In this document: one piece after another, positions 1 to 12,442 of the stretch
Position numbering within the stretch: the first letter of the stretch is position 1
How the letters are laid out: each line of letters starts with the position of its first letter
Assembly (NCBI GenBank): GCA_030622125.1
Contig: JAUXGM010000061.1
Coordinates: 1-12,442 of the forward strand
DNA: 12,442 nucleotides
Reading direction: 5' to 3'
From: a bacterium
GTDB lineage: Bacteria; AUK180
Position numbers and translations under genes: made by a program
Notes under the pieces: model-generated
Databases searched by the model: none
What the model was told of the DNA's origin: nothing
What the model saw: the letters and a program-made list of their open reading frames with translations, nothing else

Positions 1-360
1 CCGCATTATCAATACTATTTTGAAGCGTATGATAAATGGCACTGCAAAGCAGTAGGGGATGGAACTAAAATAAGATGGTTATATGGAAGTGATCTAAGTG
101 ATATTAAAATATATCCAAATCCATGGAAAATAAAGACAAACGATAAATTATTTATAGAAAATTCAACTGATGAATTCACAATTAGTATATATACAATAGC
201 TGGGAAAAAAGTTTTTGAAAAATATTATGGAAATAAGGATGATTTGATAGAAATTTCTTATAAAAATGATTTAAAAAATATTTCATCTGGAATATATTTA
301 ATAAATATTAGGAACAACTTTAATGGAAATGAAGTAAGAAAAATAGCATTAATTAAATAG
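1..360 (+). CDS. C-terminal fragment of a secreted protein with a T9SS type A/FlgD-like sorting domain (5' end outside window)
   Basis: Frame 1 is open from the first base to the TAG at 358-360 and gives 119 residues, so the start lies upstream of the window. Residues 34-119 have the usual layout of the type IX secretion C-terminal domain (Por_Secre_tail/FlgD-like Ig): IKIYPNP at 35-41, a strand with SIYTIAGKKVF at 62-72, SSGIYLINI at 95-103, and a final KIALIK at the C-terminus. In the family this domain directs a Sec-exported cargo across the outer membrane and is usually removed on arrival. Residues 1-33, which include WHCKAVGDGT, belong to an unidentified preceding domain, so the cargo activity is unknown. 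The stop lies 8 bp before the next start, with a Shine-Dalgarno GAGG in the gap, so the genes are probably co-transcribed. The domain call is fairly sure; the protein's role is not. Confidence 0.8.
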   Translation, partial: PHYQYYFEAYDKWHCKAVGDGTKIRWLYGSDLSDIKIYPNPWKIKTNDKLFIENSTDEFTISIYTIAGKKVFEKYYGNKDDLIEISYKNDLKNISSGIYLINIRNNFNGNEVRKIALIK

Positions 361-368
361 GAGGTTTT

Positions 369-944
369 ATGCAAACTAAAAAGTTATTTTTTGTGATTTT
401 ATTTGTGGGGTTATTGATCTGCTCGGCATTTTCTCAAGAGTCAATATTAGTTGTAGTCAACCAGAATATTTATAATGCAATGAGTTCTGGTCAAAAAACA
501 GTATTAAACAATTATATTGATACATTGAAAAATCGAGGATATTCGGTTCTGCCTTTAGAATTTTATGATTATTCATTTGAAAAGAATGGCAAAGGGATTT
601 TAATAACGGGAAATGATCAAGTTGATAAGTTGAATAAGAAGTTTGAAGTTTATGAGATAGAGAGGGTCTTTAAGGATATTAATGAACCAACAACAAGATC
701 CTATTCAAAGATAAAAAAGGAAATGGTAGAAGTTCCGGATCTATTTTCCATTTTTAAAATGAAATTGAAAAAAGATGTTAATGAAATGGAGGCAGTAAAT
801 AAATATAAAAATATTACAGAAGTTGAATGGGCAGAACCAAATTATATTTATAAAAACGATTTAGTATCCATAAATGATCCAGATTTTAGAAAACAATATG
901 GATTAACAAATATACATGATTCCGAAACATATGGGAGAGAATGA
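369..944 (+). CDS. Small exported protein resembling a free-standing subtilase propeptide (possibly a truncated S8 protease)
   Basis: This gene encodes 191 residues with a signal peptide at about 1-22 (KK, then a hydrophobic core ending CSAFSQ). Residues 24-62 (ILVVVNQNIYNAM, then NRGYSV) look like the N-terminal strand-helix unit common in C25-like surface proteins of candidate phyla. Residues 76-170 look like a subtilase propeptide: ILITGNDQVDKLNKKF, PDLFSIFKMKL, and VEWAEPNYIYK at 152-162. The last part, NDPDFRKQYGLTNI at 169-182, matches the linker that normally leads into an S8 catalytic domain (compare NDPYFQNQWYLNRI in the large protease here). The protein stops there, so no Asp-His-Ser triad exists. 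It may be a truncated protease, or a real trans-acting propeptide that works as inhibitor or folding helper. The intact reading frame, good ribosome site (AGGAGG at about 359-364) and coupled downstream gene favour expression. The function is inferred. Confidence 0.6.
   Translation: MQTKKLFFVILFVGLLICSAFSQESILVVVNQNIYNAMSSGQKTVLNNYIDTLKNRGYSVLPLEFYDYSFEKNGKGILITGNDQVDKLNKKFEVYEIERVFKDINEPTTRSYSKIKKEMVEVPDLFSIFKMKLKKDVNEMEAVNKYKNITEVEWAEPNYIYKNDLVSINDPDFRKQYGLTNIHDSETYGRE
933..937 (+). promoter_or_regulatory. Ribosome binding site favouring the ATG at 944
   Basis: GGGAG lies 3 bases before the ATG at 941 and 6 before that at 944. Normal spacing favours the second, giving a TGATG stop-start overlap with the preceding gene. 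Confidence 0.5.
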
Positions 945-1600
945 TGAAAAGATCAAGTTTTTTACTTGTATTATTTTTAATTGTGTTACTTAATTCAAAT
1001 TGCTTTTCAGAAAGCCAAAATAATAATTTAGCTAAATGGCAGTTTGGTATTTCAAATGGTTTTAATTTAGGATTATTAATGGGAAGCGATTTATATTTTC
1101 CGTATTATGAACATACTAAATTTGAAAACGATTTTGAAATATTGAATATTAATGGAGCATTTCTTTTAAGAAACATTAACCGTCAAAATTATGTTAAGTT
1201 AGCATATCATTATTATGAATTTAAAGCATACTCAACTTTATACCCAATTTCTCCACCTGAAGTAAGTTTAAATATTCGAATAAATAGATTTTCACTTGAA
1301 CTAATACATTCATTATTGTGTATTAAAATATTAAATACTAATATTTTGGCTGGTATTTCATTGAATCATATAAATTACTATTTTATTAAGAAGGATATTT
1401 GTGAAAGGGAAATTATCTTGAAACAACAACCCGAAAGTGGTAATTACTTTGGCTTTACTTATGGAATTGATTTTTTATTTTTTCCTAAAAAACCTATAAA
1501 TTTTTCAATAAATATAACAAACAGGCAAATTTACATTAAAAATGAGTGGCGAAATTTTAATCTATTTTTAGAAATTTCTATTTCGACAAAATATATATAA
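944..1600 (+). CDS. Small predicted outer-membrane beta-barrel protein
   Basis: This gene encodes 218 residues with a signal peptide (MKRSS, a long Leu/Val/Ile core, probable cleavage near CFS-ES). The rest is rich in aromatic and alternating hydrophobic residues. I can mark about eight amphipathic strands, starting near WQFGISNGFNLG, ILNINGAFLL, YVKLAYHYYEF, LNIRINRFSLEL, ILAGISLNHINYYF, YFGFTYGIDFLF, INFSINITN and FNLFLEISIS. The order resembles the Bacteroidota outer-membrane beta-barrel families (PF13568-like), and a small eight-stranded barrel fits the length. No catalytic motif is visible. Two ATGs compete, at 941 and 944. The GGGAG at 933-937 stands 3 bases before the first and 6 before the second, so 944 is preferred. 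The gene overlaps the preceding stop (TGATG) and ends 10 bp before the protease, which suggests a coupled job such as docking or anchoring. That job is inferred. Confidence 0.6.
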   Translation: MKRSSFLLVLFLIVLLNSNCFSESQNNNLAKWQFGISNGFNLGLLMGSDLYFPYYEHTKFENDFEILNINGAFLLRNINRQNYVKLAYHYYEFKAYSTLYPISPPEVSLNIRINRFSLELIHSLLCIKILNTNILAGISLNHINYYFIKKDICEREIILKQQPESGNYFGFTYGIDFLFFPKKPINFSINITNRQIYIKNEWRNFNLFLEISISTKYI

Positions 1601-1610
1601 GGAGGTAAAT

Positions 1611-4600
1611 ATGAAAAAAGGAAAATTTTTATTTTTATTAATGCTTTTACTAATTGTTGTAACAGGCTATCCTGATGAAGAAATGCCCTATTATTGGACT
1701 GAAGGTAAAAAAGTATACCTTGCAAAAAGTAATAATTTAGTTGTTATAAAAATCATAAGGAAGTTATCAAAGATAGAGAAATATCTAAAAGCCAAAAACA
1801 TAAAGTGTGAAAGAAAATATAAATTTGCTATTATTGATAAAAAAATATTAAAGGAAAATGAGCTAATTAATAATAAATCTGATTACATTATTTATCCTCT
1901 TTATCAATATAAAAATGAGCCTGTAGTAATTACAAATGAAATTATGATCAAGTTTAAAAAAGGATTATCTGAAAATACAATATTTAATATCTTAAAAAAA
2001 TATCCTGTCATAGTTCAAGAAATTAATAAATATGAAGATAGCATTTATCTTCTTAAAGTTAATAATAAAGAGGATATTCTTAAAATAGCTAATAGATTAT
2101 ATCAAAATAGAAATGTTATTTTTGCATCACCCAATTTTATTGAAAAATTGAAATATTATTCTGTACCAAACGATCCATACTTTCAAAATCAATGGTATTT
2201 AAATAGAATAAATTTAGATGCATGGGAAATTACAGATTGGGGTAAAAATGAAATAAAAGTAGCAGTCAATGATAGCGGGATTGATCTAAATCATTCTGAT
2301 TTAAAAGATATTTTACTTTTGGGACGCGATACTTATGATAATGATAACGATCCAAGTCCTGATAATAGTTATTCTAAGGATTATCATGGAACAGCTTGTG
2401 CCGGAATAATTGGTGCAATTGCAAATAATAATATTGGTATCTCTGGTATTGCAGGTGGATTTTATCCTAATTATGGTGTTAAAATTATACCGGTTAAAAT
2501 TTCTGGCCAAAATGGATATAGTAGTATTTATTCAGTTGGCAATAGCTTTTATTGGTGTGCTGATAACAATGTTGATGTAATTAGTAATAGTTGGAGTTTA
2601 AATTTGCCTTCTGATTTCGTTCATCAAGCCGTAATCTATGCTTCAAATAATGGAAGAAATGGAAAAGGTTGTATAATAATGTGTAGTAGTGGTAATGATG
2701 ATGAAAATGTTATTTCAGAGCCTGCAAAATATAAAGAATGTATAGCGGTTGGAGCCTTAAATAAAGATGATAAAAGATTTTCGTCATCAGATTGGGGAAG
2801 CAATTATGGTAAAGAATTAAATATTATGGGATATGGCAATGATATATTTACAACTGATATTTCTGGGAATGAAGGCAAAACAAATTCTGATTATAATAGT
2901 AGTTTTGCTGGAACTTCTGCTGCTTGTCCGATGGTTGCTGGCGTTGCAGCGTTAATTTTAATGGAAAATCCAAATTTAACGAAAGATCAGGTTGAAGATA
3001 TATTATATAAATCAGCAGATGATATTAAGAACACAGGATGGGACAAATATACTGGATATGGTAGAGTAAATGCTTTTAATGCTCTATTAGGATTTGGAAC
3101 TACATATAAAGTAGCAGGTGTTCCTAAATTAAAAGTAGGTACTACATACAAAATCAAAAATATAGTGCCTGAATATTGCGGTGATATTACCGTTACAAAA
3201 GATAGAATTTTTCCAGATTTTAATAATTACTTTTGGTTTGATGGTAGAACTAATAATTTAAAAAGATTATCTTATGGTAAATATTATTTATATTTAGGGA
3301 AAAAAATGAAAGGCAAATTTTTTATTTTACCTGATGACAAAAAACCTATCATTAATGACATATACCGAATTTCAAATAATAAAATTTCATATTATGTTAT
3401 CGATTGGAACAGCAGTAATAAATCAAATAATGGTGTATTTAATTCAATTTGGTTTTTAGATGAAAATGATAATATAATTACAGAATTATATCGTATGAAA
3501 CCAGAATTTAGAATGCCAAAAACAATAACAATTCCACAAGATGTTATTGATTATGGATTAAATAAAGCAAAAATAATGATATTCTCAGTAGATCCAGCAG
3601 GAAATTATACCTCAAAAAAACGGAAAATTTCTGATTTAAAATATTATAATTGTTATATAGCAAATGGAAGTCATGAATATTATATGTGGTTTAATTGTAG
3701 GCATGAGAAATGTTATGTCAATAGAATGGAGGTGCGGGCAAATATTGTATTCCCAAACACTTATTCAGATATTCCAAATATAACAAATTTAAGAACAAAT
3801 GGGTTCTCTCCTGCAAGCTCAAATAATTGTACTACTTATGCAGAAGTTTTACCTGATAGTTTTAAAACAGCTGGTAATGGATATGCCGGTTGTACGGTAA
3901 GGACATGGGTATATTGGATAAGTAAAGGAAGTAGCGGAACAGTAAATAAATGGTATCCTTGTTCACCGTATCAAGTAAATTTTGATTACAAAATTGAAGA
4001 TAATGAAAATGGCGATAGAATAAATCCTTTCAATTATGAATATGGAGGGGATAATTCATTACATGTTAAGCGTTCAAAAAGAAAAAAAAGAAGGTATACA
4101 TATTATATTTATCCAAAGGACCGCTCATATCAAATTTACAAGTGGATAAGAATTAGAACGGGAAAAAATAAAAGGTCAAAGGATGCAGGAACATATATAG
4201 ATTATAAACACAATAGATTGGTTGTTAAGATTGAACTTAATGGTAAGTGGTATAGTAAGGCATATTTTAATTATGTGTATTTTGCACTTGGGAGAAAAGA
4301 AAGAATTGTAGGACCACCAGAAGGTAGTATTGATGATTTAGTTTTCAATACAATTGAACCTGATTATATTTGTAATAATGTTGATAATATTGAAGTAAAT
4401 TATTCTATATCAGGAAATCAAATAGATTATCTTTGTTCAATGAATGTTTATAGTGAAGATGATCAATTGGTAAAAAAGTTAATAAATAATAAAAAAGCGG
4501 AAGGGAATTATGTGAGAAAATGGGATTTTACAACCGATAATTCATTATTTGATGCAGATGGGGATGGAAAAACCGATCCGGGAAAATATTTAATTAAATT

Positions 4601-7100
4601 TGAAATAAAAACAGCAGATGGTAGTGAAATACTTGATGCAAAATCACAAGAAATAAAAATAACAAGGGGTGATTATTATTATACGGAAAACGAAACAATA
4701 GATGACGGAATAAGAATGGATATTGGCGGAGCATACAGTTATGGAAGTGTTGATCAGGTTGATTCGCCTTTTATATTAAAATTATCAGATGGAACATACA
4801 GGATGTATTATGAAGCGGGACATGATGGAATATGGAATGGTGTTGAATATAAAGGTTGGTGGAGACGAATAATGACGGCACATTCAACGGATGGTGTTAA
4901 TTGGGTAAAGGATGGTGAGATTAGCGGTTTTCAAGGAGGTTATCCTGATTATCAATGTCCGTCTGTTATGTTGTTATCGGATGGAAAGATAAGAGTGTAT
5001 TATTCCGTTTGGGCAAAATTAATATCGGGAAGCAATAAAATATCGGCATGGACTTTGTCTGCAATATCAGATGACGGTATTCATTTTACCGTTGAGAATG
5101 GGAAAAGATTGGATTATGGCGGCGAATATGATACGGATAGAGCAAACAGGGCAAAGATTTATTTTGATGGAACGGATTACACAATGTATTATAGTGGGGG
5201 GATTGAGGATAGTTCTTCTTATTATATTCTTCAGGCAAATTCTTCTAATGGCTTGGATTTTACAAAAACAAATATACCGCTTGTAACGCCGGGTTGTTAT
5301 TACGATTCAAGTGCGGTATATAATTCTGCAATTTCAAATGATAATACCCTTTACTATACGGGAACCAGACCGGGGAAAGAATGTATCTGCACTGCAAAAA
5401 AAATAGATAGCAATTATGAAAAGAATAAGACAATAAACTTTGTCGATAGTGTTGGAAATGATCTGTTTTCTGTCGGTTTGAGGGGGTATACACCGTATTT
5501 AATTGATATTGAAGGGAAAGAAATACTTTATTTTGCAGGATTTGACGGCTCTCATAAGAAGATTTATTCAAGAGGCTTTGATGCCACTACGAAGACAATA
5601 CTTTTAAGTTCAATAGATGAAAAAAAATCTTTGATTGAAGATAACAATAGTTTAGAGAAAATAAACAATGAAACAACCTCACTTGAAAATTATTCTACCT
5701 TTTATTATGATTACCCAGATGTTAATGTTAGCATAAATGAAGAAAATCCCGAATCTAAAATGATGTCAAAAAATGAAATAAAAAAATATTCAGGTATCAT
5801 CAATGTCAATGTCCGAGGGAATGGAAAAAGGAGTGATATAAAAAAAGTAAAACTCTATGTAGATGAAGAACTTATATCGGAGATAGTATTTAATGAATTA
5901 ACTGCTGATATTGATACGGATAATTATTCCAATGGATTGCATAAAGTTATCGGTTGTGCCGTTGACAATGATGATTTTGAGGGAAGAAAGATAGTGCTTT
6001 GTGAATTTGAAGGAAAAAATGATGATGGCGGCGGCGGTTTTATTATTCCACCGGTTTATGATGATGATTGGACATTGACGGAACTTACAGGATTTAATAA
6101 ACCGACATCTATTGCAGTGGGAAATTTTGAAAACCGTTGTTCGATGCTCATAGCAGATAGAAATGCAGGGGATATAACGGGGAATGACTCCGTGAAGGTA
6201 TTTGATATTAAAGGGAATTTAATAAAAGAGATAAAGGATCTTCATAAACCCGAAAAGATATGCTTATCAAACAGTGGGGATTTGTATCTTTTAACAAATA
6301 ACAGAGATGGAATATATAAATATGACGGTGAAAAGTTTGAATTATTTCTAAATATTAAAAATATTGATGATATAAAATGGAATGGATTAAGGGATAAGTT
6401 AGAGATTTTAAAGGCGAATGGTATCATTGAATATAATGAAAACGGTGAAAAAGAAAATGAACTTACCTTTACAAACGACTTGAATTCCTTTGATTTTGAA
6501 GGAGAAAAAATAATTGGGAATTTAATAGGAACAGGAGAATTTGTGAAAGTTACAAATGACTGTGTAATTTGTGATTATAAAAAAGAGATGACTGATTTTG
6601 TTATTAAAAATAATATTATCTATGGACTTGAAAAATATACCGATAATTTGGTAAAATATAATATGAAAGAAAAAACAATCTCAAATAACTTAAATAATCC
6701 AACTCAGGTTGTTGTATTTAATTACAATGAGGAAAAAATAATAGGAGTGGTTGAAAGGAATAGTAACAGGATTTTATTTTTTAGAGATAATAAGGAAATA
6801 GAAAATGAAGAGGAAAATGAGATAAAAAAGGTTGTAACATATCCCAACCCGGCAGGAAAAAATCTGCCTGTAAAGTTTATGGTTGAAGCAAAAAAAGGAG
6901 GAAAGATAGAACTTGAAATATACACAATTTCAGGAAAGATGGTCTATAAAATAGAGGAAAATGTATCAAAAGGTGAGAATATATTGAAGTGGTATAAGAA
7001 GAATAAAAGTGGAATGAATGTATCATCAGGAATATATTATTGGGCATTAAAATTTAATGGAAAGGCTGAAAAAAGAGGAAAGTTTGCAATAAAAAAATGA
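1611..7100 (+). CDS. Giant secreted multi-domain subtilisin-family (S8) serine protease with GH43-like propeller and C-terminal sorting domain
   Basis: This gene encodes 1829 residues. Visible layout: signal peptide 1-22; N-terminal and propeptide region about 25-180, ending at NDPYFQNQWYLNRI; S8 catalytic domain about 200-492 with Asp221 (VAVNDSGID), His259 (HGTACAGIIGA), oxyanion Asn362 (SSGN) and Ser436 (GTSAACPMVAG), so the triad is complete. An unrecognised region follows at 500-900, with six Cys at 681-784 and a basic cluster at 820-828. Next come a FlgD/Ig-like domain at about 915-1018 with a DADGDGKTD calcium-type loop at 981-989, a five-bladed GH43-like propeller at 1028-1325, an Ig-like domain at 1390-1466, a Gly linker at 1473-1476, a second propeller-like stretch at 1485-1728, and a T9SS/FlgD-like tail at 1738-1829 (TYPNPAGKN, LEIYTISGKMVY, SSGIYYWAL). 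A strong AAGGAGG at 1599-1605 fixes the start. Predicted role: a surface or released protease that binds glycans or protein. Substrate unknown. The protease call is secure; the roles of the later modules are inferred. Confidence 0.93.
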   Translation: MKKGKFLFLLMLLLIVVTGYPDEEMPYYWTEGKKVYLAKSNNLVVIKIIRKLSKIEKYLKAKNIKCERKYKFAIIDKKILKENELINNKSDYIIYPLYQYKNEPVVITNEIMIKFKKGLSENTIFNILKKYPVIVQEINKYEDSIYLLKVNNKEDILKIANRLYQNRNVIFASPNFIEKLKYYSVPNDPYFQNQWYLNRINLDAWEITDWGKNEIKVAVNDSGIDLNHSDLKDILLLGRDTYDNDNDPSPDNSYSKDYHGTACAGIIGAIANNNIGISGIAGGFYPNYGVKIIPVKISGQNGYSSIYSVGNSFYWCADNNVDVISNSWSLNLPSDFVHQAVIYASNNGRNGKGCIIMCSSGNDDENVISEPAKYKECIAVGALNKDDKRFSSSDWGSNYGKELNIMGYGNDIFTTDISGNEGKTNSDYNSSFAGTSAACPMVAGVAALILMENPNLTKDQVEDILYKSADDIKNTGWDKYTGYGRVNAFNALLGFGTTYKVAGVPKLKVGTTYKIKNIVPEYCGDITVTKDRIFPDFNNYFWFDGRTNNLKRLSYGKYYLYLGKKMKGKFFILPDDKKPIINDIYRISNNKISYYVIDWNSSNKSNNGVFNSIWFLDENDNIITELYRMKPEFRMPKTITIPQDVIDYGLNKAKIMIFSVDPAGNYTSKKRKISDLKYYNCYIANGSHEYYMWFNCRHEKCYVNRMEVRANIVFPNTYSDIPNITNLRTNGFSPASSNNCTTYAEVLPDSFKTAGNGYAGCTVRTWVYWISKGSSGTVNKWYPCSPYQVNFDYKIEDNENGDRINPFNYEYGGDNSLHVKRSKRKKRRYTYYIYPKDRSYQIYKWIRIRTGKNKRSKDAGTYIDYKHNRLVVKIELNGKWYSKAYFNYVYFALGRKERIVGPPEGSIDDLVFNTIEPDYICNNVDNIEVNYSISGNQIDYLCSMNVYSEDDQLVKKLINNKKAEGNYVRKWDFTTDNSLFDADGDGKTDPGKYLIKFEIKTADGSEILDAKSQEIKITRGDYYYTENETIDDGIRMDIGGAYSYGSVDQVDSPFILKLSDGTYRMYYEAGHDGIWNGVEYKGWWRRIMTAHSTDGVNWVKDGEISGFQGGYPDYQCPSVMLLSDGKIRVYYSVWAKLISGSNKISAWTLSAISDDGIHFTVENGKRLDYGGEYDTDRANRAKIYFDGTDYTMYYSGGIEDSSSYYILQANSSNGLDFTKTNIPLVTPGCYYDSSAVYNSAISNDNTLYYTGTRPGKECICTAKKIDSNYEKNKTINFVDSVGNDLFSVGLRGYTPYLIDIEGKEILYFAGFDGSHKKIYSRGFDATTKTILLSSIDEKKSLIEDNNSLEKINNETTSLENYSTFYYDYPDVNVSINEENPESKMMSKNEIKKYSGIINVNVRGNGKRSDIKKVKLYVDEELISEIVFNELTADIDTDNYSNGLHKVIGCAVDNDDFEGRKIVLCEFEGKNDDGGGGFIIPPVYDDDWTLTELTGFNKPTSIAVGNFENRCSMLIADRNAGDITGNDSVKVFDIKGNLIKEIKDLHKPEKICLSNSGDLYLLTNNRDGIYKYDGEKFELFLNIKNIDDIKWNGLRDKLEILKANGIIEYNENGEKENELTFTNDLNSFDFEGEKIIGNLIGTGEFVKVTNDCVICDYKKEMTDFVIKNNIIYGLEKYTDNLVKYNMKEKTISNNLNNPTQVVVFNYNEEKIIGVVERNSNRILFFRDNKEIENEEENEIKKVVTYPNPAGKNLPVKFMVEAKKGGKIELEIYTISGKMVYKIEENVSKGENILKWYKKNKSGMNVSSGIYYWALKFNGKAEKRGKFAIKK
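4692..5585 (+). other. Module within the protease: five-bladed beta-propeller (GH43/GH32/GH130-like fold), GC-richer than its surroundings
   Basis: Residues 1028-1325 of the protease contain five evenly spaced strand motifs: YRMYYEAG (1063), IRVYYSVW (1127), YTMYYSGG (1190), TLYYTGTR (1246) and EILYFAGF (1304), at steps of 56-64 residues. Three blades also carry a loop of the form S-x-[DN]-G-x-x-[WF] (1092, 1153, 1211). This is the pattern of five-bladed glycosidase-type propellers. I cannot assign the catalytic acid residues of any GH family, so a binding role is as likely as catalysis. Counted GC is about 38% over 4741-5100, against about 22% over 3241-3360 plus 3421-3660 in the same gene. 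Confidence 0.65.
6822..7097 (+). other. Module within the protease: C-terminal T9SS type A/FlgD-like sorting domain
   Basis: Residues 1738-1829 run from IKKVVTYPNPAGKN through IELEIYTISGKMVYKI to SSGIYYWALKFNG and end in KRGKFAIKK. The order and the key positions (YPNP, IYTISGK, SSGIYYW, basic end) match the tail of the gene at 1-360, although the two differ at most other positions. In the family this domain acts as the type IX export signal. A FlgD-like Ig fold without export function is the alternative. No Por/Gld/Spr secretion gene is in the window to settle it. Confidence 0.75.
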
Positions 7101-7114
7101 AAAATAAATTTAAT

Positions 7115-7120
7115 AGGAGG
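7115..7120 (+). promoter_or_regulatory. Strong ribosome binding site of the ATPase proteolipid gene
   Basis: A perfect AGGAGG stands 5 bases before the ATG at 7126, in the 25-bp gap after the protease stop. The gap has no hairpin and no convincing promoter. This site is stronger than those of E, C and F, which fits the need for many K copies per complex, though that link is inferred. Confidence 0.75.
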
Positions 7121-7125
7121 ATCTT

Positions 7126-7596
7126 ATGGGTTTAGCGTATGCGTTGGCAGGTGTTTTTTTGGCGGTAGTACTTTCAGGAATCGGTTCCGCTATCGGAATT
7201 GGAACTGCCGGACAGGTAGCAAGCGGTGCTATGACAGAGCATCCCGAGCATTTTGGTAAATATCTTATACTTGTAGCATTGCCCGGTACACAGGGTATCT
7301 ACGGCTTTGCTGTTGCATTTTTGTTCCTTTTAAAGTTAAAAGGGTTTGAATATATGATCACACCGCATATGGGATGGAACTTCTTTTTTGGTGCTTTACC
7401 TGTTGCCTTTGGTGGTCTTGTATCCGCAATATATCAGGGAAAGGTTTGTGCATCAGGTATTATGCTTACGGGAAAACAACCTGCTGAATCGGCAAAGAGC
7501 TTGATCATGGCAGCGATCGTTGAGTTTTATGCAATTTTAGGCTTTGTTATTTCTTTCTTCGCATGGTTGTGGCCCCTTAGTCAAAGTTTTGAATAG
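7126..7596 (+). CDS. ntpK: V-type ATPase subunit K (proteolipid c-ring subunit), predicted Na+-binding
   Basis: This gene encodes a 156-residue, four-helix proteolipid (helices about 5-29, 45-70, 86-109, 123-148) made of two related hairpins; it forms the rotor ring of the membrane V0 sector. The ion site is in place: PGTQGIYGF gives Leu52, Thr55, Gln56 and Tyr59; AIYQGKV gives Gln104; IVEFYAILGF gives the key carboxylate Glu133. These line up with the Na+ ligands of Enterococcus hirae NtpK (Leu61, Thr64, Gln65, Gln110, Glu139, plus Tyr68) at constant offsets of 9 and then 6 residues. Na+ transport is therefore predicted, although binding of a ligand set does not prove which ion is used in the cell. 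It is the first ATPase gene of the block; the a-subunit gene (ntpI) that usually precedes it is absent, and the next gene begins 7 bp after its stop. Confidence 0.95.
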   Translation: MGLAYALAGVFLAVVLSGIGSAIGIGTAGQVASGAMTEHPEHFGKYLILVALPGTQGIYGFAVAFLFLLKLKGFEYMITPHMGWNFFFGALPVAFGGLVSAIYQGKVCASGIMLTGKQPAESAKSLIMAAIVEFYAILGFVISFFAWLWPLSQSFE

Positions 7597-7603
7597 GTAA
7601 TCT

Positions 7604-8182
7604 ATGACAATAAATAAGATTATCAAAAAGATAACGAAAGAATACGAAGAAGAAAAAGAGAATATATTGAGTGAGGCACGGACTCAAAAAAAAGATAAGA
7701 TCAAAAAGTCAAGAGAAAATATTCGTATTTGGAGTGATAATCAAAAGAAAATAATAGTAAATGAGATCCGGGAAAAGTATGTTAGGTTATATCGTGCACA
7801 GCGTTCAAGTGCTAAATTGGATGTCAATAGATTTAAAAAAGAGATAATAGACAGTGTATTCGAAAGGTTATCCGAATATGTTTTATCATTAGAAAAAGAT
7901 GAATACCAACAGTTTTTTCTAAAATTTCTTGATCTGGAGTCTATCAAATCCATATCGGAATGCTATGTTGGAATAAAGGAAAAGAAAATTGATAAGACCT
8001 TCTTAAAATTGGTTGAGAAAGAATGCAAGGGTAGGTTTTCTTTAAAAGGAACGGTAGATACATTTGATTATGGGATTCTTTTTAAGGGAGAAACTTATGA
8101 TATTAATCTCTCATACAATGAGATCATGGATATGATAAAAAAGAGATATCTGATGGAGATTTCCGGAAAATTGTTTGAATGA
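7604..8182 (+). CDS. ntpE: V-type ATPase subunit E (peripheral stalk)
   Basis: This gene encodes 192 residues. The first 80 or so are highly charged and heptad-like (KKITKEYEEEKENILSEA and on), as expected for the long stalk helix that pairs with subunit G/H. The C-terminal half is globular and ends with YGILFKGETYDINLSYNEI and a KKRYLMEISGKLF helix, the family's usual end, which contacts the top of the A/B hexamer. Its length is normal for the family. It sits between K and C, as in the E. hirae ntp and Thermus operons. The ribosome site is weak (AGGT, 5 bases before the ATG), so translation may depend on coupling to K. Its helical partner (G/H type subunit) is not in the window; it may lie upstream or elsewhere. 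Confidence 0.88.
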   Translation: MTINKIIKKITKEYEEEKENILSEARTQKKDKIKKSRENIRIWSDNQKKIIVNEIREKYVRLYRAQRSSAKLDVNRFKKEIIDSVFERLSEYVLSLEKDEYQQFFLKFLDLESIKSISECYVGIKEKKIDKTFLKLVEKECKGRFSLKGTVDTFDYGILFKGETYDINLSYNEIMDMIKKRYLMEISGKLFE

Positions 8183-9171
8183 ACAGAGAATTTTTTATTC
8201 CATCCTCATTTAACAGCAAATATGCTTATGCAAGCGGCAGAGTGAGGGCATTGGAAACAAAATTATTGGATCAGCAGAAGATTACAAAACTTGTTGTTAC
8301 GGAAAATATCGAACATTTCTTCGGAGAACTTTCCGACTCACCCTATAAGAATTATATGGAGAAACTTGAGAAGTCGCTCTCATTTGAGGATCTGCTTTTT
8401 GAGGTTTACAATGACCTTATCGATGAATTAACGAAACTTTCTTATGAAAAGAAGATCGCTCAGTTCTTTGACCTTTATTTTGATACATACAATATAAAAA
8501 TGATGTTAAAGCATCTCTATTACAAAAAACCATATCGGGAAAAACTCTTTCCTTATGGTAATATCGGAAAAGAAATATTTAAAGATGATTCTATTGTAAT
8601 GGAGAGAATACCGAATATCTATCTTCCTATTTTTGAGAAGTATGAAGAAGATATAAAAGAAAATAAAAATGGTGAATTGGTAATAAATGAGGTTGTTGAT
8701 AAATATTACTATGAAGAAATATCAAGAGAAGCAAGGGAGATCAGATCGGAATATCTGATCTTTTTGAATACCCATAATATTGAACTTATAAACTGTTACA
8801 CTCTACTTCGTAGTAAGGTATTCGGCTTTCCGCACATAATTCTTTTAAGGGATGGATTTACCGATATTAAAGAACTTACAAGATTAAAAGACCAAAATTT
8901 CGACGAGATTATGAAATATTTTATCCATTCGGGGTATGAAAAATTACTTGATAGTCGTATCAAAGAGCCGTTGGAACTACTTAAAAATTTTACTATTAAA
9001 AAAAATCAATATATTAATGGAATATATGATTATTCTAAATATATCACGATGGGTATTGAGGTTTTGATAATTTATTTTTATGAAAAAAGAGAAGAGTTGA
9101 ATATCTTACGAAAGATATTCTTATCGAAATTAAGAAATTTAAGCAGCAAGGAGATTATGGAATTATTATGA
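8179..9171 (+). CDS. ntpC: V-type ATPase subunit C (d-like, AC39 family)
   Basis: This gene encodes 330 residues, normal for the vATP-synt_AC39 family, which forms the funnel joining the central stalk to the proteolipid ring. The start has the family pattern (SKYAYASGRVRALETKLLD), and the middle has the repeated helical segments with FFDLYFDTYNIKMMLKHLYY near 96-115. A second related helical part follows at about 180-300 (SEYLIFLNTHNIELINCYTLLRSK), in line with the family's internal repeats. It is soluble, with no signal peptide. The start overlaps the E stop by 4 bases (ATGA) with little Shine-Dalgarno sequence, so it is probably translated by coupling. Position between E and F supports the call. 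Confidence 0.9.
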   Translation: MNREFFIPSSFNSKYAYASGRVRALETKLLDQQKITKLVVTENIEHFFGELSDSPYKNYMEKLEKSLSFEDLLFEVYNDLIDELTKLSYEKKIAQFFDLYFDTYNIKMMLKHLYYKKPYREKLFPYGNIGKEIFKDDSIVMERIPNIYLPIFEKYEEDIKENKNGELVINEVVDKYYYEEISREAREIRSEYLIFLNTHNIELINCYTLLRSKVFGFPHIILLRDGFTDIKELTRLKDQNFDEIMKYFIHSGYEKLLDSRIKEPLELLKNFTIKKNQYINGIYDYSKYITMGIEVLIIYFYEKREELNILRKIFLSKLRNLSSKEIMELL

Positions 9172-9479
9172 GTCAGATAGCAATAATCGGTGATAAAGAA
9201 ACCATTTTTCCATTTAATGCCGTAGGTTTTGATATCTTTGTAGCGAGCAGTGAAAATATTCAAGATATTTTTAAAGAAGTCATTTCATCTAATAAAAAGG
9301 TTATCTTTATTACCGAAGAACTTGTTCCATACATAGAAAAGGAAATTAAAGAAACAATGAGACATCCTTTTCCCGTTGTTACCTTTATTCCCTCAATAAC
9401 GGGTGGAGAGGGGAACAGAGAGAATATCGTTAATTTGATCGAAAGGATCGTAGGTCCGAATTTATTAAAAGGGGATTGA
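9168..9479 (+). CDS. ntpG: V-type ATPase subunit F (central stalk)
   Basis: This gene encodes 103 residues, typical of the F subunit family (called NtpG in the E. hirae ntp naming). Key parts: the N-terminal strand QIAIIGDKETIFPFNAVGFD, the core KVIFITEELVPYI near 39-51, and PVVTFIPSITGGEGNRENI, followed by a C-terminal helix (LIERIVGP). The family binds subunit D in the rotor and can modulate ATPase activity. The ATG overlaps the C stop (ATGA). An AAGGAG lies at 9148-9153, 14 bases before the start, which is long spacing, so coupling to C probably matters. The order C-F-A is standard for these operons. If naming follows Thermus/archaea, atpF would be the symbol. Confidence 0.9.
   Translation: MSQIAIIGDKETIFPFNAVGFDIFVASSENIQDIFKEVISSNKKVIFITEELVPYIEKEIKETMRHPFPVVTFIPSITGGEGNRENIVNLIERIVGPNLLKGD
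9470..9475 (+). promoter_or_regulatory. Ribosome binding site deciding the subunit A start
   Basis: AGGGGA stands 6 bases before the ATG at 9482 but directly abuts the alternative TTG at 9476. Normal spacing therefore favours ATG 9482, giving a protein that begins [14 protein letters not shown], as the family does. Confidence 0.7.
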
Positions 9480-9481
9480 TT

Positions 9482-11257
9482 ATGAGTAATATAAAAGGAA
9501 TAATTACCAAAGTTGCAGGTCCATTGGTCGTTGCCAAAGGGATGTCAAATGTAAATATGTTTGATGTTGTTAAGGTTGGTGAACTTGGGCTTATTGGTGA
9601 AGTTATTGAGATTCACGGAGACAATGCTTATATTCAGGTTTATGAAGAAACCGGAGGGCTTGGTCCCGGTGAAAAGGTTATATCCTCCGGTGCTCCACTC
9701 TCCGTTGAGCTTGGTCCGGGGCTGATCGGTACTATCTACGATGGAATTCAACGACCATTAAAAGATATAGCAGCAATTTCAGGGGATTTCATTACAAGGG
9801 GAATAGAACTTCCCGCATTGAATAGAGAAAAGAAATGGGAATTTATGCCAACGAGAAAAAAGGGAGATGCGATTCAAGCAGGTGATATTATCGGTGAAGT
9901 AAATGAAACGGATATCATCAGTCACAAGATAATGGTTCCATTAGATATTTCTTTTGGAAAGATAAGATCCATAGAAAAGGGTATATTTACCGTTGAAGAT
10001 GTTATTGCCGTAATAGAAGATAAAAAAGGGAAAGAACATAAGATCAGACTTCTTCAGAGATGGCCGGTTCGAAAACAAAGACATTATTTAAGGAAAAATT
10101 CACCTTCAAGACAACTTGTTTCAGGGCAGCGTGTAATAGATTCATTTTTTCCAATTGCAAAAGGCGGAACTGCCTGTGTTCCGGGTCCATTCGGTTCAGG
10201 TAAAACAGTGATCCAGCACCAGCTTGCAAAATGGGCTGATGCCGATATCGTTGTTTATGTTGGTTGTGGTGAGCGTGGAAATGAGATGACGGATGTTTTA
10301 AATGAACTTCCGGAACTTATTGATCCAAGAACCGGAAAATCCCTTATGGAGAGAACTATACTTATTGCAAATACATCCAATATGCCTGTTGCTGCAAGAG
10401 AAGCATCTATTTTTACAGGAATTACTCTTGCGGAATATTTCAGAGATATGGGTTATGATGTTGCACTAATGGCTGATTCTACTTCTCGTTGGGCTGAGGC
10501 ACTAAGAGAGATATCAGGTCGGCTTGAAGAGATGCCGGGTGAGGAAGGTTATCCTGCCTATCTTGGAACAAGGATAGCAAATTTTTATGAGAGAGCAGGT
10601 GCAGTCACCTGTCTTTCAAGTGATAAAAGAGAAGGTACTATATCTGTTATCGGTGCAGTGTCTCCTCCCGGTGGCGATCTATCCGATCCGGTTGTTCAGG
10701 CAACACTTCGTGTTGTTAAGGTATTCTGGGCACTTGAAGCTATGCTTGCATACAAAAGACATTTTCCGGCAATTTCCTGGTTAAATTCATATTCTCTTTA
10801 CTACGATAATATTCAAAAAGAAGTTGAAAAAAGGATCGGCAGCGAATGGACAAATATGAGAGGAGAGGCATTAAAATTACTGGAATTAGAGGCGGAACTT
10901 ATAGAGATAGTTCGTCTTGTCGGACTTGAATCACTTTCACAAAAAGACAGACTTATATTGGAAACTTCACGGTTGATAAGAGAGGATTTCCTTCACCAAA
11001 ATGCCTTTTCCGATATAGATACCTATACCTCATTTGAAAAAATGTATAAGATGCTTTCCGTTATTTTATATATGAATAAGACATCTGAAGTTGCTATTGA
11101 AAATAAGGTTACGGTAGAGGAACTTTTTAAGATAAAAGCAATTGAAAAGATCGCAAGAATGAAATATATACATGAAGATAATATTGCCGAGATAGACAAG
11201 ATAAAAGATGAGATTTCTACTGAGATTAACAATTTAATTAAGGCGGTGGAGGAATAA
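9482..11257 (+). CDS. ntpA: V-type ATPase catalytic subunit A
   Basis: This gene encodes 591 residues from the ATG at 9482; a TTG two codons upstream is less likely because of ribosome-site spacing. This is the nucleotide-hydrolysing subunit of the V1 hexamer. Visible motifs: N-terminal barrel [14 protein letters not shown] at 8-21; the non-homologous insert region characteristic of A subunits at roughly 115-190; Walker A GPFGSGKT at 235-242 with Lys241; GCGERGNEM at 261-269 with catalytic Glu264; and the Walker B region [17 protein letters not shown] at 327-343 with Asp332. The C-terminal helical domain follows to 591. All catalytic residues are present and the length is normal, so it should be active. 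It follows F with a 2-bp gap and is followed by B after 1 bp, as in other ntp/atp operons. Confidence 0.97.
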
Positions 11258-11258
11258 A

Positions 11259-12442
11259 ATGGCAAAAGAATATAAAACATCCGTTGAGATATCCGGACCT
11301 CTTCTTTTGGTTGAAAAGGTTGAAGGCATCAAGTATGAAGAATTGGTTGAGATAGAACTTAAAAATGGTGAGATTCGTAGAGGACAGGTGCTTGAGATTG
11401 ATAGGGACAGAGCATTGATCCAGATTTTTGAAGGTGCATCGGGACTAAATTTGCCTGAGGCAAGAATAAGATTTCAAGGAAAAGGAATAGAGATAGGACT
11501 TTCCAAAGATATGCTTGGGAGGGTGTTTGATGGACAGGGAAGACCAATAGATGGTGGTGGTGAGATATTTCCCGAGGAAATAAGAGATATCAATGGAGCA
11601 CCGATAAATCCATATATGCGAACCTATCCATCCGAGTTCATCCAAACAGGTATCTCTTCCATAGATGGTTTGAACACACTTGTAAGGGGACAGAAGCTTC
11701 CTATATTTTCCGCTTCAGGATTACCCCATGCCCAGATGGCAGCTCAGATCGCAAGACAATCAAAGGTTCGCGGTAAAGGTGAAGACTTCGCAGTCGTTTT
11801 TGCTGCAATGGGAATTACATTTGAAGAAGCAGATTATTTTATAAAGGACTTTCAAAAAACAGGGGCAATAGAAAGAGCTGCTCTATTTATAAATCTTGCG
11901 AATGATCCGGCAATTGAGAGGATCGCTGTTCCAAGAATGGCATTGACCGCAGCGGAATATCTTGCTTATGAAAAGGATCTCCATGTTCTTGTCATCTTAA
12001 CGGATATGACCAATTATTGTGAGGCATTAAGAGAAATATCCGCAGCAAGAAAGGAGGTTCCGGGCAGACGAGGTTATCCCGGTTATCTATACACTGATCT
12101 CTCAAGCATATATGAAAGAGCCGGAAGAATTAAGAATAAAAAAGGCTCCATTACACAGATCCCGATATTAACAATGCCCGAGGATGATAAAACCCATCCG
12201 ATCCCGGATCTTACAGGTTATATTACCGAAGGACAAATCATTTTATCGAGGGGGCTTTTAAAAAAAGGTGTTTATCCACCCGTTGATGTTCAAGCATCAC
12301 TTTCTCGTTTAAAAGACAAAGGTATAGGCAAGGGAAAGACGAGAGAAGATCATGCGGATGTATTTAATCAGCTTTTTGCTATGTATGCCCAGGGTCTTGA
12401 AGCAAGGGAACTTGCCGTTATACTTGGAGAAGGAGCACTTTC
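11259..12442 (+). CDS. ntpB: V-type ATPase non-catalytic subunit B (3' end outside window)
   Basis: An ATG at 11259, preceded by GGAGG at 11248-11252 with 6-base spacing, opens a frame that stays open to the window edge: 394 complete codons of an expected 455-470. Family marks include [20 protein letters not shown] at 11-30, [18 protein letters not shown] at 81-98, [20 protein letters not shown] at 117-136, the altered P-loop [19 protein letters not shown] at 149-167, [17 protein letters not shown] at 245-261, and [19 protein letters not shown] at 343-361. Arg350 there fits the arginine finger that reaches the A-subunit active site. The lack of a true Walker A is normal for B, which binds nucleotide weakly if at all. 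Subunit D is the expected next gene. Confidence 0.96.

Follow-up and report, generated by a model that had tools for sequence, protein, structure and literature searches.

Bacterial V-type Na+-ATPases of the ntp type are encoded in operons whose gene order is ntpFIKECGABD in Enterococcus hirae and G-I-L-E-C-F-A-B-D in Thermus. The placement of lineage-specific genes inside an otherwise conserved operon, on the same strand, is a known phenomenon of operon evolution. In the locus considered here, as read from its sequence, the ancestral gene order G-I-K-E-C-F-A-B-D has very probably been broken in this lineage, where some 9.6 kb of genes for secreted proteins now separate I from K.

Gene content of the window

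Contig C137 (12,442 bp), from end to end, makes up the window; it belongs to a 2.08-Mb genome assembly (192 contigs, 96% complete, 0.68% contamination). Table 1 lists the features of the window. An initial annotation, made from the window alone, had described a 5.5-kb secreted protease gene ending 25 bp before K, the ATPase gene order K-E-C-F-A-B, and the absence of any remnant of I. The protease gene and its distance from K are borne out, Pfam agrees with the gene order, and a genome-wide V_ATPase_I search finds I genes on contigs C105 and C192 only.

The best PDB match of K is the K ring of the Enterococcus Na+ V-ATPase (2bl2, E 8.1e-35), in an alignment that includes LPGTQG, QGK, and VE-YAILGFVISF segments. 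The Na+-site residues of E. hirae K are T64, Q65, Q110, and E139; the K encoded here carries the same residues at the aligned positions of 2bl2, a match with Na+-translocating V-ATPases at the level of these residues.

Table 1. Features of the window, with positions counted from its first letter
Feature	Position	Strand	Evidence
Secreted protein gene, 3' end; Por_Secre_tail sorting domain	1..360	+	PF18962 E 1.1e-9; TIGR04183
Truncated subtilase, 191 aa; signal peptide and prodomain, without catalytic domain	369..944	+	Peptidase_S8_N E 8.6e-6, below curated cut-off
p219, predicted exported protein, family unknown; start inside the stop of the preceding gene	941..1600	+	
Secreted subtilase, 1829 aa	1611..7100	+	PF00082 (Peptidase_S8) E 1.4e-47; TIGR04183; motifs; PDB subtilases
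Gap, 25 bp, with Shine-Dalgarno of K (TAGGAGG), like relatives	7101..7125	+	
V-type ATPase subunit K, 156 aa, two-hairpin, NtpK-like	7126..7596	+	PF00137; NF005124 above cut-off; PDB 2bl2
V-type ATPase subunit E	7604..8182	+	PF01991 weak; position; phmmer matches to E genes of relatives
V-type ATPase subunit C	8179..9171	+	PF01992 E 2.5e-27
V-type ATPase subunit F	9168..9479	+	PF01990 E 5.4e-17
V-type ATPase subunit A	9476..11257	+	PF00006, PF16886; NF003220 above cut-off
V-type ATPase subunit B, truncated at contig end; remainder on C29, then D	11259..12442	+	PF00006

Reconstruction of the split operon

In gene direction, contig C105 carries a G-like gene (112 aa), I (652 aa), the gene for p256, which starts 1 bp past the I stop, a 416-bp gap, and a secreted-protein gene that runs off the contig end. 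This end overlaps the window start by 59 bp, 56 of them identical (three mismatches), and the overlap lies inside one open frame; it is this overlap, at 95% identity, that supports the join. Once joined in frame with C105:3-1349 (minus strand), the secreted protein at the window start is about 549 aa long. The overlap sequence occurs nowhere else in the genome. A false overlap driven by a repeat was considered and dismissed, since a 135-bp query searched against the genome has strong matches at the two contig ends only. The other end of the window overlaps contig C29 by 284 bp with five mismatches; the rest of B lies on C29, as do D (C29:532-1173) and, after it, a gene of 332 aa.

The order reconstructed from these overlaps is G-I-insert-K-E-C-F-A-B-D, with an insert of about 9.6 kb; from the coordinates, the I stop and the K start are 9603 bp apart (2537 + 7125 - 59). 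Across C105, the window, and C29, the genes for G, I, K, E, C, F, A, B, and D are all present and intact, G and E being called from position and from relatives as they score below the Pfam cut-offs. Because the ATPase genes flanking the insert are intact, the pump is probably still made. The initial annotation had offered the insertion of a secreted-protein cassette, with I further upstream, as one of two readings, and had proposed looking for I and a G/H stalk subunit beyond the window; I and a G-like gene lie on the contig that joins the window start.

The gene that follows D on C29 (L013:1160-2158; about 335 aa) overlaps the end of D, has no Pfam match, and occupies the same place in all five genomes of the family. 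It is possibly a lineage-specific partner of the ATPase operon.

Ancestral gene order in relatives

The four relatives of the same family (G001 to G004) each have a contiguous G-I-K-E-C-A-B-D followed by the gene of about 335 aa; their I and K genes either overlap or are separated by 8-12 bp. G003 has F listed as well, and the other three have room for it between C and A, where a longer antisense ORF was picked. Together with the present genome, these four form a supported clade on subunit B, whose nearest named neighbors are from candidate phyla. A wider survey covered 80 named genome loci around B; I adjoins K in all 61 of the loci in which both genes were detected, the largest gap being about 290 bp, and the remaining 19 are without I or without both genes in the stretch examined. 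The initial annotation had held that relatives in which I never precedes K would count against it, and the gene orders found are the opposite. As G-I-K is uninterrupted both in the four relatives and in the 61 named loci, the insert is a derived, lineage-specific interruption. Two WOR-3 loci (L074 and L093) have C-F-A-B, with neither K nor I detected within the several kb examined upstream.

The large protease

The 1829-aa subtilase has the active-site motifs DSG, HGT, and GTS at residues 221, 259, and 434 and a C-terminal Por_Secre_tail (TIGR04183, 26.7 bits against a cut-off of 23). In its S8 domain, these motifs, and the sorting tail it resembles subtilases sorted by the type IX secretion system (T9SS), but it differs from them in its very long middle region. 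A search for SprA, part of the T9SS machinery, gave no match in this genome or its relatives, nor in any control genome.

Homologues of the protease are found in G001, G002, and G003, all away from the ATPase operon; G004 has none, similarity there being limited to the subtilase domain common to these proteins and to short segments. The G001 homologue (L156:7054-10527) is without the subtilase half and consists of the C-terminal approximately 930 residues and the sorting tail only.

Origin and decay of the insert

Two further genes of the insert have homologues beside the protease homologues of relatives. p256 has a single homologue in the seven genomes searched (40% identical); it is in G001, about 720 bp past the downstream end of a protease homologue. 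For p219, the relatives searched yield one homologue at E<1e-3, in G003, where the next gene downstream of it is the full-length protease homologue. These associations suggest that a pre-existing neighborhood probably moved in; judged from gene content, the block probably came from, or has common ancestry with, a protease neighborhood (p219, protease, p256) which in relatives is located away from the ATPase operon. Compared with the G001 neighborhood, p256 is here on the other side of the protease, an order that could arise through a circular intermediate or local reshuffling. Structure predictions for p256 and p219 have a mean pLDDT of about 34.

The insert contains relics. The truncated subtilase gene encodes a prodomain that shares 29% identity, across 75 aa, with the corresponding region of the large protease, and the apparent end of another sorting-tail gene lies between p256 and the secreted-protein gene. 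Beside this sorting-tail remnant is a dispersed, palindromic-looking repeat of about 50 bp (L005:1394-1506, minus strand, on C105), of which the genome has about ten copies, complete or incomplete; it is located inside the insert, not at its ends. Pfam finds no transposase or integrase domain in the insert proteins, no target-site duplication is seen at the insert junctions when the sequences are read by eye, and an Rfam search gave no match.

Third-position GC content (GC3) is 0.15-0.25 in the insert genes, against 0.290 +/- 0.034 for 48 other genes of the genome. A recent foreign origin would be an unsafe conclusion from this offset, because the homologous genes in G001 and G003 are likewise low in GC3 relative to their own ATPase genes; the offset is therefore not proof of recent transfer and may be a property of this class of genes. 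The sequence differences in the contig overlaps are amino-acid changing in zero of five cases in B and in three of three in the secreted-protein gene, which, for so few sites, fits a maintained ATPase and a loosely constrained insert.

Transcription of the split operon

The initial annotation saw neither a hairpin nor a clear promoter between the protease gene and K. This description holds: there is no terminator-like site in the 25-bp gap, nor in the gaps between insert genes within the window, and promoter-like sites in the window occur at chance level (76 found, against 66.1 +/- 9.2 in shuffles). A plausible promoter precedes G-I (TTGAAT-16-TATAAT with an extended -10), and G-I would be expressed from such a promoter upstream of G. 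For K-E-C-F-A-B-D, we infer either read-through of the insert, over about 12 kb from the G-I promoter, or a promoter within the insert that would have arrived with it; the ATPase would then be transcribed through the protease gene.

A more specific form of this explanation, concerning transcription only, divides the locus into two units, in which G-I-p256 would terminate at a hairpin located where p256 ends and a promoter before the sorting-tail gene would drive transcription through the protease gene into K-E-C-F-A-B-D. The hairpin has 13 pairs and an MFE z of -3.34, is absent from the G001 homologue, and is followed by a promoter-like TTAAAA-17-TATAAT; the gaps free of terminator-like sites downstream agree with such a unit. 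Yet the hairpin contains just three G-C pairs and lies in coding sequence, while the promoter-like site falls inside the coding remnant of the sorting tail, and such sites are found at chance level (29 against 28.6 expected). This division is tentative, its chances being somewhat below even.

Alternative explanations

Two other readings would remove the insertion altogether. The assembly is fragmented and sequence variation is visible at contig overlaps, so a chimera might be suspected, in which the protease/K junction, the I/p256 junction, or both are misjoined and the true operon is contiguous. That would, however, require two independent misjoins, one on C105 and one on C137, pointing to one gene block whose members p256 and protease are neighbors in G001; in addition, the two free contig ends overlap uniquely and in frame, K retains its usual Shine-Dalgarno sequence, and the genome has no other first-operon copy of I or K. 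A chimera is very unlikely. The second reading of the initial annotation, that I has moved, would have G and I relocated and the K-to-D half following an unrelated protease gene without continuity. It has in its favor that I sits on a different contig, but the unique overlap within a single reading frame, the position of I directly before K in all four relatives, and the presence of a protease neighbor, p256, directly after I contradict it; we consider it very unlikely.

An alternative view accepts the insertion and regards it as adaptive, with coupling of the ATPase to the secreted protease genes under selection. All insert genes are indeed co-oriented with the operon; within the window the gaps between them are short and their Shine-Dalgarno sequences strong. 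Against this, the insert holds decayed genes (the truncated prodomain and the sorting-tail remnant), it is absent from the operon in the four relatives, and the differences seen in the contig overlaps point to a loosely constrained secreted-protein gene, unlike B; adaptive coupling is very unlikely. The preferred reading remains a lineage-specific interruption in which the secreted-protein block would have been placed between the I stop and the Shine-Dalgarno sequence of K.

The second V-ATPase operon

A second V-ATPase operon has the order G-C-I-K-F-E-A-B-D and is uninterrupted in G001, G003, and G004. In the present genome it is split between A and B, on C192 (L006:244-828, minus strand) and C39 (L014:214-1632): A, on C192, has an RHS-core ORF 52 bp after it, and B begins on C39 after 213 bp without a listed gene; the C192 end matches no other contig end in the genome. 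Both V-ATPase operons of this genome thus appear to be interrupted. A broader proposal is that selection maintains joint expression of a Na+-type V-ATPase with a secreted protease and sorting-tail proteins, so that ion pumping and surface proteolysis would be co-regulated, and that surface-protein genes would land recurrently at the I/K junction and at the A/B junction of the second operon; it is very improbable.

Caldicoprobacter oshimai offers another case of an unrelated gene inside a V-ATPase operon: A and B are separated there by an ORF of 491 aa (L025:8377-9852) that has no Pfam match and whose start, in our estimation, resembles TnpB.

Comparison with known systems

In this locus a large unrelated block separates the genes of subunits that a conserved membrane complex needs in fixed stoichiometry, and the four relatives without the interruption serve as controls. 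Whether V-ATPase assembly requires I and K to be co-transcribed can be tested here directly. It also illustrates that a subunit missing beside a contig end need not mean a lost subunit. The literature searched, which was covered in part, contains no description of genes inserted between I and K.

Like the ntp-type operons of E. hirae and Thermus, the operon has the same subunits in the same relative order; it differs from them in that I is not directly upstream of K, the two being about 9.6 kb apart with unrelated genes between them. As an operon interruption the locus adds one more case to a known type of event, and it is unusual compared with operon interruption in general in the size of the block, in its site, a junction intact in every surveyed locus with both genes, and in the splitting of the second V-ATPase operon of the same genome as well.
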